From: Oscillospiraceae bacterium
GTDB lineage: Bacteria > Bacillota > Clostridia > Oscillospirales > Ruminococcaceae
Length of the DNA stretch: 55,416 nucleotides
Direction: 5' to 3'
Assembly (NCBI GenBank): GCA_009778115.1
Contig: WRKL01000005.1
Location: forward strand, 1 to 55,416
This document shows positions 19,321-37,589 of the stretch, in pieces. Under the pieces are notes generated by a model, which was not told where the DNA came from, ran no database searches, and worked only from the letters and a program-made list of their open reading frames with translations. How positions within the stretch are numbered: position 1 is the stretch's first letter; every line of letters starts with the position of its first letter. The position numbers were made by a program, and so were the translations under genes.

Positions 19321-19482
19321 TAGACCTCCTCGAAAATCACTTCGCAACGTATGAACGGAAGATTTCCCGTCACACGGCGTTAATTTATTCTCAAATATCC
19401 ATGATATTCTCGTCAAAATTGCCTTGTTTGACGAAAAATCATCTGTGTTCATACATCACGTTTTAATTCCCGGGGAGGTCTA
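19321..19482. mobile_element. MITE-like element, copy A (longest copy)
   Basis: 162 bp, with TAGACCTCCTCG (19321) and CGGGGAGGTCTA (19471-19482) as inverted ends matching 11 of 12. Inside are two short hairpins shared by other copies: AATATC CAT GATATT (about 19396-19410) and CGTCAAA...TTTGACG (19411-19433). The right end overlaps the glyA stop codon. TA at both borders is compatible with a TA target duplication. No protein is encoded. Copies B-G are at 27561, 29719, 29883, 31189, 32840 and about 45526. Confidence 0.75.
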
Positions 19483-29690: not shown

Positions 29691-29718
29691 AAACCCTGAC
29701 ACCAGCCGTCGCGTACTT

Positions 29719-29736
29719 GATTTCCGAGGAGGTCTA
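29719..29736. repeat. Solo terminal repeat of the MITE-like family (copy C)
   Basis: GATTTCCGAGGAGGTCTA matches the right end of the other copies; no left end or interior was found within 150 bases upstream. Confidence 0.5.
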
Positions 29737-29815: not shown

Positions 29816-29882
29816 GAAATGTTATAAAGGGGGTGTTCGAAAAATAAAACCGAAAAAAGCCTGTAAATCATAAAAGAGTCAC

Positions 29883-29958
29883 TAGACCTCCTAGAAAACC
29901 ACTTCGCGACGTTATGATCTGTGTTCATACATCACGTTTTAATTTCCGAGGAGGTCTA
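29883..29958. mobile_element. MITE-like element, copy D (76 bp, internally deleted)
   Basis: TAGACCTCCTAG at the left and CGAGGAGGTCTA at the right. It keeps the outer ACCACTTCGCGACG and TTCATACATCACGTTTTAAT segments but lacks the central hairpin part seen in copies A, E and F. Confidence 0.7.
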
Positions 29959-29981: not shown

Positions 29982-31160
29982 TCAAACCGCATCCGAACCC
30001 CATGCCACAGCGGTGCTGTTCCCTTCGCCTATCGTCAAAAGTATTTTTATTTCCGCTCCCGAAACCGCAACGGTCGCAAGATCCCTGTTATAATCAATGA
30101 ACTCCCCGTTCGTCATAAGTGAATATCTGCCTAAATCTGAAGAAACCGTAACCGACAATTCGTTTCTGTCAAAATCATCACCCAGTCCGCCTATTGCGAA
30201 AATTAAATCATATCTTCCTGCGTTAGGGTCGAATAAAGCCGCGGAAACTTCTCTGGAGTTTACTGTGAGTTTTGCAACTGATTTCGCAGAATGCTCGTCA
30301 TAAGCGCCGGAAACAGCACATTCGATCAATTTGGATGCGCCTCTGGATGATGCCATCATCTGACGGGTGAGGTTTTGAATTACCCAATACATTGAATTAG
30401 CGAAAATTTCATAGTTTTCAGAATTTATTATAATAGGACGATTGCCCGCTTTGCGCGAGGATAGGGCGACCGCCATATCATTTACCGTGGGGCGGCCCGC
30501 TTTCATATCAAAAGTGAGCCTTGATGCGTATTTTAAAGCTTGAGAAAGCACGGAATTAGAAACATTTGCATCCGTAGTTATGATAATAATGTTCCCGGCA
30601 TAACCTGTGTCCAACCCTGCTCCCGAAGAAGTTATTCCCCCGATCGTGCATTCTTTGCCTTTCAGGTTAAACTTTACGGCATATTGGTTGTTTACCGCGG
30701 GGTTGCTTCTAAGCACCCTTGATGCTAGTTCCGAACCGTTCAGCGACAAATTCGTCGCCAAATCCGTCATATTGCAAATGATATTTTCGGAATCCAGCGG
30801 GATATTTGTTATTCCGGCACTTGCGTTCAGAAAGTTCCCGCCTAAAACATGGGATGCAGATTTTACGCATAAGCCCGCAGTGTGTATATCCTGTTCGTAG
30901 TCATAACAGTTAGCGATCTTCGAATTTATCAATATTCCGCGCACATCGCCCTGTGTAACCGAAAGGGTGGAAATACTCAGCGGAGCGCCCTTGAATTTGT
31001 TCGCTGACGTATATAAAGCGACCCGGCAGGGTTCGTCCGAATATATAAGCGCAAGATCCGGTTCATCGTGGTTTTCGGAAAGTCCGCAATATATTGCGTT
31101 AGCGTAAAATCCCTGTGCCGCGCAAATTCCGCCGCCGGTGTATTCAAATTGTTCCAGCAT
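29982..31160 (-). CDS. ArgJ (ornithine acetyltransferase)-like protein lacking the catalytic threonine
   Basis: Resembles bifunctional glutamate N-acetyltransferase ArgJ along its 392 aa: A-A-Q-G-F-Y-A-N, D-L-A-L-I-Y-S-D, N-S-x-x-A-N, C-T-I-G-G-I (171-176), I-T-T-D-A (194-198), L-F-D-P-N-A-G-R and A-V-A-W-G near the end. True ArgJ cleaves itself before the Thr of the P-N-M-A-T-M-L motif, which then becomes the nucleophile. Aligned residue by residue, this region reads T-G-Y-A-G-N-I, with Gly189 at the Thr position. The D-G-D-T-S-T-N-D loop is also altered and the usual tail after W-G is cut short. It probably cannot process or catalyse as ArgJ does. It lies downstream of hisF, isolated by repeat elements on both sides. 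The frame is intact, so a new function is possible; active ornithine acetyltransferase would have to be encoded elsewhere. Confidence 0.72.
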   Translation of the reverse strand: MLEQFEYTGGGICAAQGFYANAIYCGLSENHDEPDLALIYSDEPCRVALYTSANKFKGAPLSISTLSVTQGDVRGILINSKIANCYDYEQDIHTAGLCVKSASHVLGGNFLNASAGITNIPLDSENIICNMTDLATNLSLNGSELASRVLRSNPAVNNQYAVKFNLKGKECTIGGITSSGAGLDTGYAGNIIIITTDANVSNSVLSQALKYASRLTFDMKAGRPTVNDMAVALSSRKAGNRPIIINSENYEIFANSMYWVIQNLTRQMMASSRGASKLIECAVSGAYDEHSAKSVAKLTVNSREVSAALFDPNAGRYDLIFAIGGLGDDFDRNELSVTVSSDLGRYSLMTNGEFIDYNRDLATVAVSGAEIKILLTIGEGNSTAVAWGSDAV

Positions 31161-31188
31161 ATTTCGATCCTTATAATTATTGATTTAT

Positions 31189-31311
31189 TAGACCACCGTC
31201 ACACGGCGTTAATTTATCCTCAAATATTCATGATATTTCCGTCAAAATTGCCTTGTTTGATGAAAAATTATCTGCGTTCATGCATCACGTCTTAATTCCC
31301 GGGGAGGTCTA
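31189..31311. mobile_element. MITE-like element, copy E (123 bp)
   Basis: Ends TAGACCACCG (left, shortened) and CGGGGAGGTCTA (right). Both internal hairpins are kept; the changes in one stem (TTTGATG against CGTCAAA) still allow a G-U pair. It lies between the hisF stop and the ArgJ-like gene. Confidence 0.75.
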
Positions 31312-31322
31312 TTGACGGTTAA

Positions 31323-32084
31323 CTATATGCGGACGTTTATTCCGTTTTGAAGAAGAGTGGTTTTTAATTCTTTTATGTTTATTTCGCCGTAGTGGAAAAT
31401 AGAGGCGGCAAGAGCCGAGTCAACATTATCAATGGATTTAAAAAGCTCGATGAAATCTTCTGTTTTGCCCGCACCGCCCGAGGCAACAATAGGGATGCTG
31501 ACTGATTTTGCGATAACTTGAAGCATTTGCAAATCGAACCCCTCTTTTACGCCGTCGGTGTCGATAGAATTTATTACAAGCTCCCCGGCACCGTCTGCCT
31601 CCGCCTTTTTTGCCCAATCGACCGCACTGTATTCGGTTTCCTGTATCCCGACATGGGAATACACCATAAACCTGCCGTCCGGTGCGCGTTTTATGTCCAT
31701 GGACAAAACAATACACTGACTGCCGTATTTTGAAGCGGCATTTTTTACCAGATTCGGGTCACGCAGCGCACCTGAGTTGATGCTGACTTTATCCGCGCCC
31801 ATATTTAACAGCCGTCCGCAATCCTCTATCGTGTTGATCCCGCCGCCGGCCGTAAGGGGGACAAAAGTTTCCTTTATAACCTTTTTTAACGCGTCGTCAA
31901 ACAGTTCACGACCTTCCGCAGTAGCTGTAATATCGTAAAAAACCAATTCATCCGCACCTTGCTCGTTATACTTTTTCGCGAGTTCGGCAGGGTCGGCGAC
32001 ATCCGTGATTTGCCGGAATTGTCTGCCCTTTACGACTTTACCGTTGCGTACATCCAGGCATGGAATAATTTTTTTTATGATCAT
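31323..32084 (-). CDS. hisF: Imidazole glycerol phosphate synthase, cyclase subunit
   Basis: Cyclase half of the glutamine-dependent synthase that turns PRFAR into imidazole glycerol phosphate and AICAR. 253 aa, a (beta/alpha)8 barrel: [15 protein letters not shown] at the start with catalytic Asp11-type residue, A-G-G-G-I in the middle and S-G-G-A-G-K in the phosphate site near the end. It overlaps hisA by four bases. The glutaminase partner HisH, usually encoded nearby, is not in the window. Confidence 0.97.
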
Positions 32085-32797
32085 ACTTTACCTCCGAATT
32101 TCAAATTCACTTCTGCAAGATTAATCGCTCCGATATATATTGCTTTGCCTAATATTGCGCCGTAGATTCCCATATCGCTCAAGGCGGAAAGTTCCTCCAT
32201 CGAACTTATGCCGCCGGATGCAATAATTTCTGCGTTGATTTCGGATTGCAGTAAACGGTAGATTTCAAGGTTTGTTCCCCTCATCATGCCGTCACGGGAT
32301 ATATCGGTATATATTATGGTCTTTATACCCTTAGTTGAAAGTGTTTTGCAAAACTCAACGGAATCCAGCTCCGAAGTTTCCCGCCAGCCTTTGATCGCAA
32401 CTTTTCCTTTGCGTGCATCTACCCCGACCGCAATTTTTTCGCCGAATCTGTCCAGTGCCGTTTGCAGGAATTCGTCATTTAGCGCAGCACTTCCCAAAAT
32501 AACCCTTTGTGCTCCGATAGACAGATAACACTCGCAGCTTTCAAGGTCGCGTATACCGCCGCCTACCTGACATTTTATGCCCGTTGCTATAATTCTTTCA
32601 ATGGTTTTGAAATTTTTGAATTTTCCGTCCCGCGCACCGTCAAGATCAACGATGTGCAAAAATTCGGCCCCCTGTTTTTTGAAGTCGGAAGCGACAAATG
32701 CGGGGTCTTGATTAAACACGGTGACCTGATCATAATCGCCCTGTAAAAGTCTTACGGCCTTTCCGTCTTTTATATCTATAGCGGGAAAAATATTCAT
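32081..32797 (-). CDS. hisA: ProFAR isomerase (phosphoribosylformimino-AICAR-P isomerase)
   Basis: Isomerises ProFAR to PRFAR, the HisF substrate. 238 aa, barrel fold homologous to His[15 protein letters not shown] at the N-terminus (Asp8), [15 protein letters not shown] (catalytic Asp) and A-S-G-G-I near the C-terminus. AAAGGAG lies 12 bases before the ATG. It is separated from hisB by 224 bases holding a weak terminator-like hairpin and repeat copy F, so hisAF may be transcribed separately from hisZGDCB. Confidence 0.97.
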
Positions 32798-32839
32798 ACG
32801 AATGTTCCACTCCTTTCAGGTACAGCGATGTTATTATAA

Positions 32840-32964
32840 TAGACCACCGTCACACGGCGTTAATTTATCCTCAAATATCCAGGATATTCTCGTCAAAATT
32901 GTGCCTTGCTTGACGAAAAATCATCTGTGTCCGTATATCGCGTTTTAATTCCCGGGGAGGTCTA
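32840..32964. mobile_element. MITE-like element, copy F (125 bp), between hisB and hisA
   Basis: Ends TAGACCACCG (left) and CGGGGAGGTCTA (right). The hairpin AATATC CAG GATATT is kept although its loop differs from copy A. CGTCAA/TTGACG is kept despite a two-base loop insertion. It occupies the place where hisH often lies in clostridial his operons. Confidence 0.75.
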
Positions 32965-33000
32965 ATTTTACTCCAAGTTGGGGAACACACAAAAATGAAA

Positions 33001-33017
33001 AAGAGGTTACTGAACCT
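33001..33017 (-). terminator. Weak terminator-like hairpin after hisB
   Basis: Minus strand AGGTT-CAGT-AACCT (33017-33004) followed by CTTTTT. The stem is only 5 bp, so termination may be partial. Confidence 0.4.
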
Positions 33018-33021
33018 GCTT

Positions 33022-33606
33022 TCAAACCAGAATTCCTTTGGATGACGGAATATTATCGCCTGTAACGGTCAGAGCTTTTCTTAATGCAACCGCTGCCGCT
33101 TTGAAGGTTGCTTCTATAATGTGATGTATGTTTTCGCCGTGGATAAGTTTCAAATGTAATGTCAAGGGGAATTTCCGGACGAAAGATTGAAAAAACTCCC
33201 GGGATAACTGTATGTCGAAATCGCCGGTTTTAATCGCCGGAAGAGGGAAGTCGTACCGCAAATGTCCGCGTCCGCTTATATCCAAGGCGGCAAGAACCAG
33301 AGTTTCGTCCATTGGCATAAAAATATCCGAGAAACGTTCTATTCCCCTCATGTTTCCTGCGGCCTGCTTAAAAGCTGCGCCCAAAACGATTCCGACATCC
33401 TCCACGGTATGGTGTCCGTCGATATGCAGATCGCCGTCACATTTTAACGTTATGCCGAAACGTCCGTGTTTCGCGAAAGCAGACAGCATATGATCGAAAA
33501 ACCCTATGCCGGAGGTTCCGTCGAAGCCGCCGCACGAATCAATGTCCAAAGCCAAGGTTATGTTGGTTTCGCTGGTTTTGCGTTCAATTTTACTTGTGCG
33601 TTTCAT
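33022..33606 (-). CDS. hisB: Imidazoleglycerol-phosphate dehydratase
   Basis: Dehydrates imidazole glycerol phosphate to imidazole acetol phosphate. The monofunctional 194-aa form, without the phosphatase domain found in enterobacteria. Mn-binding histidine motifs are visible: F-F-D-H-M-L (about 36-41), D-G-H-H-T-V-E-D (about 64-71) and H-H-I-I-E-A-T-F-K-A near the C-terminus. Histidinol-phosphate phosphatase must come from another gene. The hisC gene lies 36 bases upstream on the same strand. Confidence 0.96.
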   Translation of the reverse strand: MKRTSKIERKTSETNITLALDIDSCGGFDGTSGIGFFDHMLSAFAKHGRFGITLKCDGDLHIDGHHTVEDVGIVLGAAFKQAAGNMRGIERFSDIFMPMDETLVLAALDISGRGHLRYDFPLPAIKTGDFDIQLSREFFQSFVRKFPLTLHLKLIHGENIHHIIEATFKAAAVALRKALTVTGDNIPSSKGILV

Positions 33607-33642
33607 TGGAACTCACTTCTTTCTTGCTTAATTATCAAAAAA

Positions 33643-34692
33643 CTAAAAAAACTCGTTTGCACATATTTCAACCAAGCTGTCAATCTCCGCTTCGGTTCCG
33701 ATTGTTATACGCACATATTCGCGAATCCGCGGTTTGTCGAAATATCTAACAAGTACACCGCGCTTTTTTAACTTTGAGTATATTTCGCCGCCGTTTATAC
33801 CCGGAAAGGAAGCAAACACAAAGTTCGCCATGCTGTCGGTGACTTTTGCGCCCATTGCGATAAGGTTCTCTTTAAGCTTTTCGCGGGTATTAGTCACGGC
33901 TTTTACGGTTTTTTGAAAATACAAGTCATCGCAGATCGCCGCCGTACCTGCCAGTTGTGCCGCCATATTAACATTATAGGGGTTGCAGGAATATTTAACT
34001 TTTTCCAGAGCCTCGATAAGCGGGGAAGCGCCTGCGGCAAAACCTAACCGCAGTCCTGCAAGCCCCCGGGATTTTGAAAAAGTCCGCATTATCAAAAGAT
34101 TATTGTACTTATTCGTCAGACCAAGAGCGGAATTTCCGCCGAAATCTATATAAGCTTCATCTATTATAACAAGCCGGCGTGGATTTTGCAACAACAATTC
34201 TTCAATTTCATTGTTACTGAGATACAATCCGGTGGGCGCGTTGGGATTTGCGATTATTATTGTACTGTTATCACCGGCAATGTGATAATCCGAAACGTTT
34301 ATGCGAAAATTTTCAGATAAAGGTATCATGGTTGCGGCAGCGTTATAATATGCCGAAAAAACACGATAAAAATCATAAGTTATGTCGGCAAAGAAAACCT
34401 TTTCCCCGGCAATAAAAGCGCGGAACGCAAAAGAGAGGGCTTCGTCGCTTCCTGCGGACACAAAAATATTTTCCTTACGCAAATTATAATATTCGGCGAT
34501 CGCGGCTTTTAATTTGCCGGATGCCGGGTCGGGGTACAGCCGGGGGTTAAAATCAGACAAAGCTTTTATAACATCCGGCGACGGAGGATAAGGCAGCTCG
34601 TTGGTATTCAATTTGATATAATCCATATCCCGCGGCTGTTCTCCGGGGGTATATGCAACGAGGTTTTTCATATCAGATACGGTAAAATCCAT
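33643..34692 (-). CDS. hisC: Histidinol-phosphate aminotransferase
   Basis: PLP-dependent transamination of imidazole acetol phosphate. 349 aa, fold type I. N-P-N-A-P-T-G is the substrate/PLP site, D-E-A-Y-I-D-F the pyridine-contact aspartate, and T-F-S-K-S-R-G-L-A-G-L-R-L-G-F holds the Schiff-base lysine. The stop of hisD is 1 base before the ATG, so the genes are tightly coupled. Confidence 0.95.
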   Translation of the reverse strand: MDFTVSDMKNLVAYTPGEQPRDMDYIKLNTNELPYPPSPDVIKALSDFNPRLYPDPASGKLKAAIAEYYNLRKENIFVSAGSDEALSFAFRAFIAGEKVFFADITYDFYRVFSAYYNAAATMIPLSENFRINVSDYHIAGDNSTIIIANPNAPTGLYLSNNEIEELLLQNPRRLVIIDEAYIDFGGNSALGLTNKYNNLLIMRTFSKSRGLAGLRLGFAAGASPLIEALEKVKYSCNPYNVNMAAQLAGTAAICDDLYFQKTVKAVTNTREKLKENLIAMGAKVTDSMANFVFASFPGINGGEIYSKLKKRGVLVRYFDKPRIREYVRITIGTEAEIDSLVEICANEFF

Positions 34693-34693
34693 G

Positions 34694-35974
34694 TTATCCT
34701 CTTTCCTGATTAAATCTTATCCTGACAGAATTTGCGTGGGCATCCAAACCTTCAGCTTCGGCGAAAGTTATGATTTTATCCTTGACTTGTGCTAATGTAT
34801 CCCTTGTGTAATAAATATATGAAATCTTTTTCACAAAATCGCTGACCGATAATCCCGATGAGAACCGAGCCGATCCGTTAGTGGGCAGTACATGGTTGGT
34901 ACCGGCTATATAATCCCCTGCCGCTTCGGGAGCCATATGCCCCAGAAATACCGAACCGGCATTTTCTACAGCACCGAGAAGCGCAAAAGGATCCTGCGTA
35001 CACAGCTCAAGATGTTCGGGCGCGAATTCGTTGGATATTTTCACAGCGGTTTCGACGGTATCCGCTATAATTATATATCCGTTGTTTTGAAGTGAAGTTT
35101 CGGCGATTGAGCGGCGGGAAAGAAGTCGTAACTGTTTTTCGAGTTCAGCGGCGGTGTGCCGCGCTATACTGCGGGAAGTGGTAACGAGAACTGCGGCGGA
35201 TAAAACATCGTGTTCAGCTTGCGAAAGAAGATCCGCCGCTATATAGCGGGGACTTGCTGTTTCGTCGGCGACAATTAAAATTTCGCTCGGACCTGCGATC
35301 ATATCTATATCCACATCACCGAAGACCTGTTTTTTTGCAATCGCCACATATATATTCCCGGGACCGGTGATTTTGTCCACACCGCATACCGTATCCGTTC
35401 CGTAAGCGAGTGCTGCTACGGCTCCCGCGCCGCCTATTTTATAAACGGTTTTGACACCGCACATATTTGCCGCTGTCAGGATAGGAGCGGCAACACTGCC
35501 GTCTGCATCGGGCGGAGTCGCCATATATATTTCCGAAACGCCGGCTATCATGGCAGGTACAGCGTTCATAAGCACCGAAGAAGGATAACTGGCAGTACCG
35601 CCCGGAACATATATTCCGGCGCGTTTTAACGGTGTAAGTTTTTGCCCCAGCGCAGAATCGTTGTCACGAAGTACAAAACCTTCGTTTTTTTGAGCGCTAT
35701 GGTATCTAATCAGATTTTCCAGCGAAGTCTTCATTGCCTCGAGCAGAGGTGTACCCTCAAGCTTCCGCTGCGCTTCTTTACGTTCCGCTTGTGTAACCTC
35801 GAGCGAATTTAATTTTGCCCCGTCGAACTTTTCAGCGTATTCAAACAGCGCATCATCGCCCCGGGTCTTTACATCGCAAATAATTTTCGCAACAATATCG
35901 TTTATAGCCTTATCTTCGGTTTTACGGCATATAAGACCGGAAAGAGGCTGTCCTTTATATTCGATGATTTTCAT
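34694..35974 (-). CDS. hisD: Histidinol dehydrogenase
   Basis: Zn enzyme that makes the last two oxidations, histidinol to histidine with two NAD. 426 aa, normal length. Signatures: Y-V-P-G-G-T-A-S-Y-P-S, I-A-G-P-S-E-I-L-I-V-A-D, L-L-S-Q-A-E-H-D and, later, F-A-P-E-H-L-E-L with the catalytic Glu-His. It overlaps hisG by four bases. Confidence 0.97.
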   Translation of the reverse strand: MKIIEYKGQPLSGLICRKTEDKAINDIVAKIICDVKTRGDDALFEYAEKFDGAKLNSLEVTQAERKEAQRKLEGTPLLEAMKTSLENLIRYHSAQKNEGFVLRDNDSALGQKLTPLKRAGIYVPGGTASYPSSVLMNAVPAMIAGVSEIYMATPPDADGSVAAPILTAANMCGVKTVYKIGGAGAVAALAYGTDTVCGVDKITGPGNIYVAIAKKQVFGDVDIDMIAGPSEILIVADETASPRYIAADLLSQAEHDVLSAAVLVTTSRSIARHTAAELEKQLRLLSRRSIAETSLQNNGYIIIADTVETAVKISNEFAPEHLELCTQDPFALLGAVENAGSVFLGHMAPEAAGDYIAGTNHVLPTNGSARFSSGLSVSDFVKKISYIYYTRDTLAQVKDKIITFAEAEGLDAHANSVRIRFNQERG

Positions 35975-36600
35975 AATGTTTTCTCCAGTTCTCCGACGAT
36001 TTTTGTTATTTCCCGGTTTTTGAATTTAAAACTTATTTTATTCGAAATAAGCCGCGCGGAGGACAAAGCTATTTCAGCGATAACTTCCAGTCCGTTTTCG
36101 CGGATCGTTGCGCCGGATTCAACAATATCAACGATCGTATTTGCAAGACCAAGACACGCCGCAAGCTCGATGGAGCCCCCAAGCTTGATAACTTCTACTT
36201 CCTGCCCCAAACACGCATAGTAATTTTTTGCGGTGTTCACATACTTAGTTGCTACCGTAAGACGTTTTGAGGTATCCGGGACATATCCCTTGAGTGCAGC
36301 AACAGATAAACTGCATTTTCCAAGCTTCAAATCAAGCAATTCAAAAACATCACTTTGCTGTTCTATCAAAATATCCTTACCGATTACGCCTATATCGGCG
36401 GCTCCGCGCTCCACATAAATTCCCACATCAGAAGGTTTAACAAGAAAATAGCTGACTTTACGCTCATCGTTATGAAAAACCAGCTTTCGGCTATCGTTAA
36501 AAGTTTCGCCGCACTCCAGCCCGATCTTGCTGAACATGGTGTACACTTTGTTTCCCATTCTGCCTTTGGGAAGAGCTATTTTTAAGTTGTTGTTTTTCAT
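35971..36600 (-). CDS. hisG: ATP phosphoribosyltransferase, short form
   Basis: First committed step: ATP + PRPP to phosphoribosyl-ATP. At 209 aa this is the short HisG, which lacks the C-terminal regulatory domain and needs HisZ, encoded immediately upstream with a 4-base overlap. Signatures: A-L-P-K-G-R-M near the N-terminus, G-V-I-G-K-D and the PRPP loop region E-S-G-A-T-I-R-E-N-G-L. Confidence 0.96.
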   Translation of the reverse strand: MKNNNLKIALPKGRMGNKVYTMFSKIGLECGETFNDSRKLVFHNDERKVSYFLVKPSDVGIYVERGAADIGVIGKDILIEQQSDVFELLDLKLGKCSLSVAALKGYVPDTSKRLTVATKYVNTAKNYYACLGQEVEVIKLGGSIELAACLGLANTIVDIVESGATIRENGLEVIAEIALSSARLISNKISFKFKNREITKIVGELEKTL

Positions 36601-37517
36601 ACGCGTTCCTCAATTTCGTTGAGCTTTACCGCAAACCCCATAGCGCCGCCGGTTCCACCCAGTTTTCGCACCAAATTGTCATATCTTCCGCCGGACAGAA
36701 CAACCGAAGACAATTCTTTTACATAGCCGCGGAAAATTATCCCACTGTAATATGATAAATCGTTTATGATGCCGAAGTCAAGCCTTGCCGTTTTTGAAAG
36801 TCCGGCATTAACAAGATAATTGTAAAGAGCTTTTAAATCGGTTAAAATATTTTCCATTTCGGCACTTATAACTAATTTTTCAGCTTGCGGAAGAATGTCG
36901 GAAAATTTACCGTGAAGCCCCGGGAGAATCAATAATTTTTCCTTCAAAGAATCCGCAATTTCTGCGTTTTCCAAAACTCCGGTTATTCCGTGCCGGCTTT
37001 TGAGAATAACATTTTCGAATACAGCGTCGCGCAACGGCTTTTCCAAACCCTTAAACAAATCTGATATAAACCCTACATGGGATATGTCAAGAATATAATC
37101 ATCGCTGATCGTTTTAAGGCTTTTTAACGCAAGTGTAATGATTTCCTCCGTGCTTTGCCGGTCAATATCACCGATATGCTCCAACCCTATTTGGCGGATA
37201 GCTTCGTATTTTCGGCTGACCGGGGACATACGGCAAACTTCATCCGAATAATAAAGCTTTTGACATCCGCCGGCGGATAATGCTTTTTTCACGACGGATA
37301 AAGTTACATCCGGTTTTAACGACAACAACTGCCCATCCGTATCCATAAAAGTGATGATCCCGCCCGAACCCACAAAATTTTTGTTGTCGATATAAAGCTC
37401 CGCCCGTTCAAATTTCACAGGACGGACAGCCGAAAAACCTGCTTTCTCGTAAATATCGCGCAAAGCAAACTCTATCAGTTCGCTGCGGTTTAAAATGTTC
37501 ATAAAATTCTGCATCAT
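36597..37517 (-). CDS. hisZ: ATP phosphoribosyltransferase regulatory subunit
   Basis: Histidyl-tRNA-synthetase-like protein without aminoacylation role; it forms the hetero-octamer with short HisG and carries feedback inhibition by histidine. 306 aa from the ATG at 37517. This start has GGAAAGG 6 bases upstream. The longer frame (to 37565) would begin inside the -10 box of the promoter at 37561-37589, so it cannot be the main start. Features: L-K-P-D-V-T motif 2-like segment and a class II core; C-terminal G-G-R-Y-D-N-L. First gene of the his run. Confidence 0.93.
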   Translation of the reverse strand: MMQNFMNILNRSELIEFALRDIYEKAGFSAVRPVKFERAELYIDNKNFVGSGGIITFMDTDGQLLSLKPDVTLSVVKKALSAGGCQKLYYSDEVCRMSPVSRKYEAIRQIGLEHIGDIDRQSTEEIITLALKSLKTISDDYILDISHVGFISDLFKGLEKPLRDAVFENVILKSRHGITGVLENAEIADSLKEKLLILPGLHGKFSDILPQAEKLVISAEMENILTDLKALYNYLVNAGLSKTARLDFGIINDLSYYSGIIFRGYVKELSSVVLSGGRYDNLVRKLGGTGGAMGFAVKLNEIEERV

Positions 37518-37560
37518 GCGCAACCTTTCCAATAAACCATGCGGCATATTTAATAAAACC

Positions 37561-37589
37561 AGCATATTCCACTTTAGCTATTTAGTCAA
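37561..37589 (-). promoter_or_regulatory. Promoter of the histidine operon
   Basis: Minus-strand TTGACT (37589-37584), 17-base spacer, TATGCT (37566-37561). Leader of about 37 bases before hisZ, too short for a T-box. Confidence 0.8.

Follow-up and report, generated by a model that had tools for sequence, protein, structure and literature searches.

In ArgJ structures, the Lys, the Glu, the C-terminal tail and the Thr-Gly pair have roles in substrate and oxyanion binding. In other enzyme families, dead paralogues serve as partners, as is the case for HisZ and for the non-catalytic proteasome beta subunits. ArgJ is a self-processing ornithine acetyltransferase/N-acetylglutamate synthase (TIGR00120, PF01960), the nucleophile of which hardly varies. 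Autoproteolysis of the Mycobacterium tuberculosis enzyme takes place between Ala199 and Thr200 (PMC5887547). One ArgJ paralogue, OAT2 of Streptomyces clavuligerus (PDB 1vz6), has been recruited to clavulanic acid biosynthesis. The gene considered here was noticed in a preliminary description of the window, that is, the whole 55,416-nucleotide stretch analysed (Oscillospiraceae bacterium, contig WRKL01000005.1), as encoding an ArgJ-like protein that has lost its autocatalytic Thr.

Frame, family and predicted fold of the window gene

The gene and its upstream neighbourhood are as follows.

29982..31160, minus strand: odd gene of the ArgJ family, with a 392-aa product that is predicted to be a single chain (open reading frame, PF01960 and AlphaFold2)
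31323..37565, minus strand: hisZ-hisG-hisD-hisC-hisB-hisA-hisF cluster upstream of the odd gene (context)

According to the list of open reading frames, the gene runs from an ATG at 31160 to 29982 through 392 codons with zero internal stops. PF01960 (ArgJ) is the sole Pfam match of the protein (E 3e-55, 187.9 bits, residues 20-390), and this match is full-length (profile positions 2-363 of 377) and above the cut-off of 32 bits, which places the protein in the ArgJ family in the broad sense. The NCBIfam ArgJ equivalogs, in contrast, give 181.6 against a cut-off of 351 and 175.2 against a cut-off of 298. Because these scores are about half of the curated cut-offs for ArgJ enzymes, the protein is homologous to ArgJ but is no ordinary ArgJ. 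An AlphaFold2 model, the input alignment of which included ArgJ relatives, has a pLDDT of 92.1 and a pTM of 0.92, and its best fold match is OAT2 1vz6 (Z 39.0 in VIA-align, 351 residues, 2.5 A, 22% identity); the fold families that come after ArgJ/OAT, of the DmpA/BapA/ThnT type, score Z ~19. The predicted structure shows that the ArgJ (Ntn) fold is kept. The ArgJ homology initially proposed is therefore upheld by the PF01960 score of 188 bits and by the predicted ArgJ/OAT fold. The reading of D-P-N-A-G-R as a retained ArgJ motif is not secure, because the normal motif is GxDANWGR, a gap is needed to align the two, and F-D-P-E-I-P is found in the orthologue described below.

The gene lies on the same strand as the his cluster, 162 bases after hisF, and its downstream neighbour is a convergent gene for an ABC-transporter ATPase. 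No Rfam elements were found around the gene at gathering scores, and promoter and terminator scans of its surroundings gave results at chance level.

Active-site positions

The following positions differ from those of ordinary ArgJ; the orthologue is that of the sister genome.

30594..30596, minus strand: Gly189 codon (GGG) replacing the autocatalytic/nucleophile Thr (sequence and structure alignment)
30627..30629, minus strand: Ser178 codon replacing the invariant Lys of KG[AS]GM (Lys in 132/132 others; Thr in the orthologue)
30813..30818, minus strand: Ala115-Gly116 at the Thr-Gly oxyanion pair (Thr lost in the window copy, kept in the orthologue)
30477..30503, minus strand: KAGRPTVND in place of the VDGDTSTND loop (shorter by two residues; PTVND also in the orthologue)
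30336..30350, minus strand: SSRGA (Arg273) replacing the invariant DGEGA, with loss of the catalytic-site Glu (Glu in 132/132 others; Tyr in the orthologue)
29982..29999, minus strand: protein end after AWGSDAV, without the C-terminal tail LTYxYVKINxxYR[ST]

When the window protein is aligned with 133 homologues from relatives and GTDB genomes, the nucleophile column holds Thr in 132 of the 133, and Gly in the window protein and one other, the orthologue. Residues are numbered from Met1, so that the nucleophile position is Gly189, as in the preliminary description. In this region, OAT2 (1vz6) can be aligned without gaps to a profile built from the two odd proteins, Gly being opposite the Thr of PDMAT. 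In the structural alignment, model residue 188, which corresponds to Gly189 as Met1 is absent from the model, is matched to the first beta-chain residue of OAT2 (181) and of M. tuberculosis ArgJ (200). The sequence profile and the predicted structure thus agree with the original assignment of Gly189 to the position of the nucleophile.

It could be argued that the protein is still an ArgJ that uses another nucleophile, such as Thr185, which lies four residues ahead of Gly189. This is very improbable, because the alignment places Thr185 off the nucleophile column, the orthologue has no Thr there, the Lys, the Glu, the DGD loop and the C-terminal tail have also been lost, and a normal ArgJ is present; a catalytic Thr at this site, the circumstance under which the preliminary description was to be abandoned, is not seen.

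The loss extends further than the Thr with which the preliminary description was concerned, since the Lys, the Glu, the loop and the tail have gone as well, and this makes the case for loss of ArgJ-type catalysis stronger than was originally proposed. The replacement of the T-V-D-G-D-T-S-T-N-D loop was correctly recognized, (K)AGRPTVND being accompanied by a two-residue deletion. The C-terminal ArgJ tail, in which an Asn is invariant and the last residue is Ser or Thr, was sought in all three frames and was found in none. Other ArgJs have 130 columns that are conserved at >=95%; 48 of these are retained by both members of the odd pair, whereas normal ArgJ pairs at 45-55% identity retain 107-113. 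Loss of ArgJ catalysis in the window protein is well supported, as judged from the alignments and the predicted structure.

Orthologue, distribution and selection

A second, normal argJ in the genome, which the preliminary description proposed to look for, is present on another contig. It scores 437 bits, has all catalytic residues and lies in the order argC-argJ-argB-argD (the neighbours argC, argB and argD were named from their sequences, without a family scan). The other genome compared in the genus, referred to here as the sister, has one ordinary argJ and one orthologue of the odd protein. This orthologue, which is 39% identical to the window protein and has an intact frame of 397 codons, is encoded on contig WRME01000053 of an Oscillospiraceae MAG from sample Th196P3; Th196 denotes the termite Termes hospes (PMC7024585). 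As in the window protein, AGN replaces AT(M/L), and the Lys, the Glu and the tail are absent; the oxyanion Thr, which the window protein has lost, is kept. Its predicted fold is confident (pLDDT 90). An orthologue with the same Thr-to-Gly substitution, another suggested check, has thus been found in the sister MAG.

The stop codon of the orthologue precedes the ATG of argF by 2 bases, and the argF of the window genome, which is 73% identical to that of the sister, is on another contig. No synteny common to the surroundings of the two odd genes was found. The window gene does follow hisZ-G-D-C-B-A-F, as had been pointed out; because the sister gene adjoins and precedes argF rather than his genes, the histidine neighbourhood is no conserved trait and looks incidental. 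No hisH or hisI/hisE was seen in the window his cluster, and another contig (G000:C49) carries a hisI-like gene. In the sister genome, a second hisH-hisF-like pair (L156 2082-3475) adjoins an asparagine-synthetase-like gene; its hisF-like member is 43% identical to the window hisF, and the pair resembles the WbuY/WbuZ sugar-amidation type.

A MITE-like repeat of ~116-131 bases with inverted ends TAGACCTCC...GGAGGTCTA occurs in the window at 31181-31311, 32837-32964 and 19367-19482, with partial copies at 29880-29958 and 29717-29736, and also at L033 5025-5150. It was scored at 40 places among 88 candidates in the 1.45 Mb window genome and at none in the sister genome. Copies flank the odd gene on both sides, sit within the his cluster and directly follow the normal argJ; one occupies the hisB-hisA gap (32797-33022), where hisH often lies. 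The window contig and the normal-argJ contig carry this same repeat family at ~90% identity, which ties them to one organism. A frameshift, misassembly or contaminating contig might be suspected, as both genomes are MAG-like drafts and the window genome is 65% complete; the intact frame, the presence of this protein in a second, independent MAG from the genus and the tie that the repeats provide between the two contigs make such an artefact very improbable.

The odd ArgJ appears to be rare. A profile search of 397 family genomes gave no further members that stood out, the next-best match scoring 309 bits against 763-784 for the odd pair, the scores of which are inflated because the pair built the search model. 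At E <= 1e-85, a threshold that would miss weaker orthologues, no further members were found in overlapping samples of 394 genomes from the order and 391 from the class. Only the sister MAG rose above the ArgJ background in a pattern scan of the 84,980 species genomes of GTDB r220, and strongly diverged relatives could have escaped all of these scans. Known members are thus confined to two genomes of one genus, both MAGs, the sister being from a termite gut. A full-text search of a literature collection found no description of an ArgJ pseudoenzyme. Nine other genomes of the family gave a second ArgJ match; these matches proved to be one tandem argJ pair and otherwise fragments or single copies. 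The tandem pair, in genome G322 (L166 1453-2697 and the next argJ frame), comprises two argJ copies after argC, both of which keep the nucleophile Thr; the first has DGDTD for DGEGA and a diverged GxDANWGR, and is perhaps a separate drifting ArgJ copy.

Synonymous sites of the odd pair are saturated (pS 0.78), and pN is 0.43 as compared with 0.74 for randomly paired codons; differences at the three codon positions are 0.46, 0.37 and 0.72. About 22 stops would be expected in unconstrained sequence of like composition, and none is observed. Among 48 family-conserved columns that have been lost in both proteins, 16 carry an identical replacement, as against 3.2 expected from shuffling, which indicates that the main loss took place before the two genes diverged and that the new sequence was in part conserved thereafter. 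Saturated synonymous sites together with restrained protein change and two intact frames argue against an ordinary pseudogene, in agreement with the initial view, based on the frame of 392 codons, that the gene is no simple pseudogene. In the tree, the odd pair forms one clade (support 99) on very long branches, and an origin by duplication within the genus is compatible with the data (p-AU 0.485). Past selection on the gene pair is well supported by these sequence comparisons, the averages of which show past constraint and not present-day usefulness.

The odd pair, at 39% identity, evolves faster than the normal ArgJ pair of the same two genomes (56%), and a recent loosening of constraint is therefore possible. 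The gene may be a decaying relic, a duplicate that lost catalysis and is drifting towards disappearance, in which the frame persists by chance or only briefly. The faster divergence, further losses private to each species, such as that of the oxyanion Thr in the window copy only, the differing gene neighbourhoods and the restriction to two genomes would all suit a relic, and past constraint is compatible with recent decay. We nevertheless consider a relic unlikely, because frames of 392 and 397 codons are intact despite saturated synonymous sites, protein change is restrained, the shared replacements, including AGN and PTVNDM, are not random, both folds are confident and the sister gene is tightly coupled to argF.

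Possible function and comparison with known systems

Catalytic residues have been lost while frame and fold were kept by selection, which is the pattern of a pseudoenzyme with retained function, here in two genomes only. The explanation that we favor, with moderate confidence, is that the odd gene encodes a single-chain ArgJ pseudoenzyme paralogue, retained by selection beside normal ArgJ, which is non-catalytic and tunes arginine synthesis. Given the known mechanism of ArgJ, a protein without the nucleophile Thr and its partners should undergo no autoproteolysis at that bond and should not transfer acetyl groups in the manner of ArgJ. It most likely works without ArgJ chemistry. It would most likely pair with ArgJ or a neighboring arginine enzyme, or bind a metabolite of the arginine pathway in the remodelled pocket, and either interaction could tune arginine synthesis. 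Such a role as partner or sensor is plausible, and we infer it by analogy; it is favored because the fold is intact, normal ArgJ coexists and the sister gene is coupled to argF. Since the dead copy has also been kept in the sister, next to an arginine gene, we regard a retained non-catalytic partner or sensor as the most likely identity of the protein, and the product of a broken gene as less likely. Against a link to arginine, the argF adjacency is limited to the sister, and the window gene lies behind hisF.

Alternatively, the ArgJ fold may have been repurposed as an enzyme or binding protein with other chemistry or another ligand, unlinked to arginine control. The overall fold is retained, and former active-site segments have been rebuilt partly alike in both proteins (N190, PTVND, S272 and DP311-312), as such a change of role would predict. 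However, the two members have no obvious new catalytic set in common, and their nucleophile regions (KGAGM-HPNMAT) are otherwise unlike, so that repurposing also seems improbable.

As to the pseudoenzyme reading, it is conceivable, although we put it forward only tentatively, that the odd proteins represent a new branch of the ArgJ fold, regulatory and non-catalytic, which remains uncut, senses a metabolite or pairs with ArgJ or ArgF, and provides extra control of arginine, possibly arginine-histidine, synthesis. If this is true, an ArgJ-like regulator would add a layer of control over arginine synthesis in these bacteria, possibly at an unrecognized control point. A lineage in which a copy that is dead and uncut accompanies an active ArgJ would also provide a natural test of the ArgJ fold without its chemistry. 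Domain-based annotation would label the window gene argJ, which should be taken as a warning.

Compared with ArgJ itself, the window protein has full-length homology, the same predicted fold and ~30-37% identity, but lacks the Thr, the Lys, the DGDTSTND loop, the Glu of DGEGA and the tail, and is predicted to be uncut. OAT2, too, is a second copy whose role has changed; it is an active enzyme that has kept its cleaved Thr181, whereas the window protein lacks that Thr. HisZ, the gene for which is present in the window his cluster, and the proteasome beta subunits resemble the window protein in keeping an enzyme fold without catalysis beside an active paralogue, a likeness that is one of analogy only. 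What is new here is a pseudoenzyme variant of the known ArgJ family.
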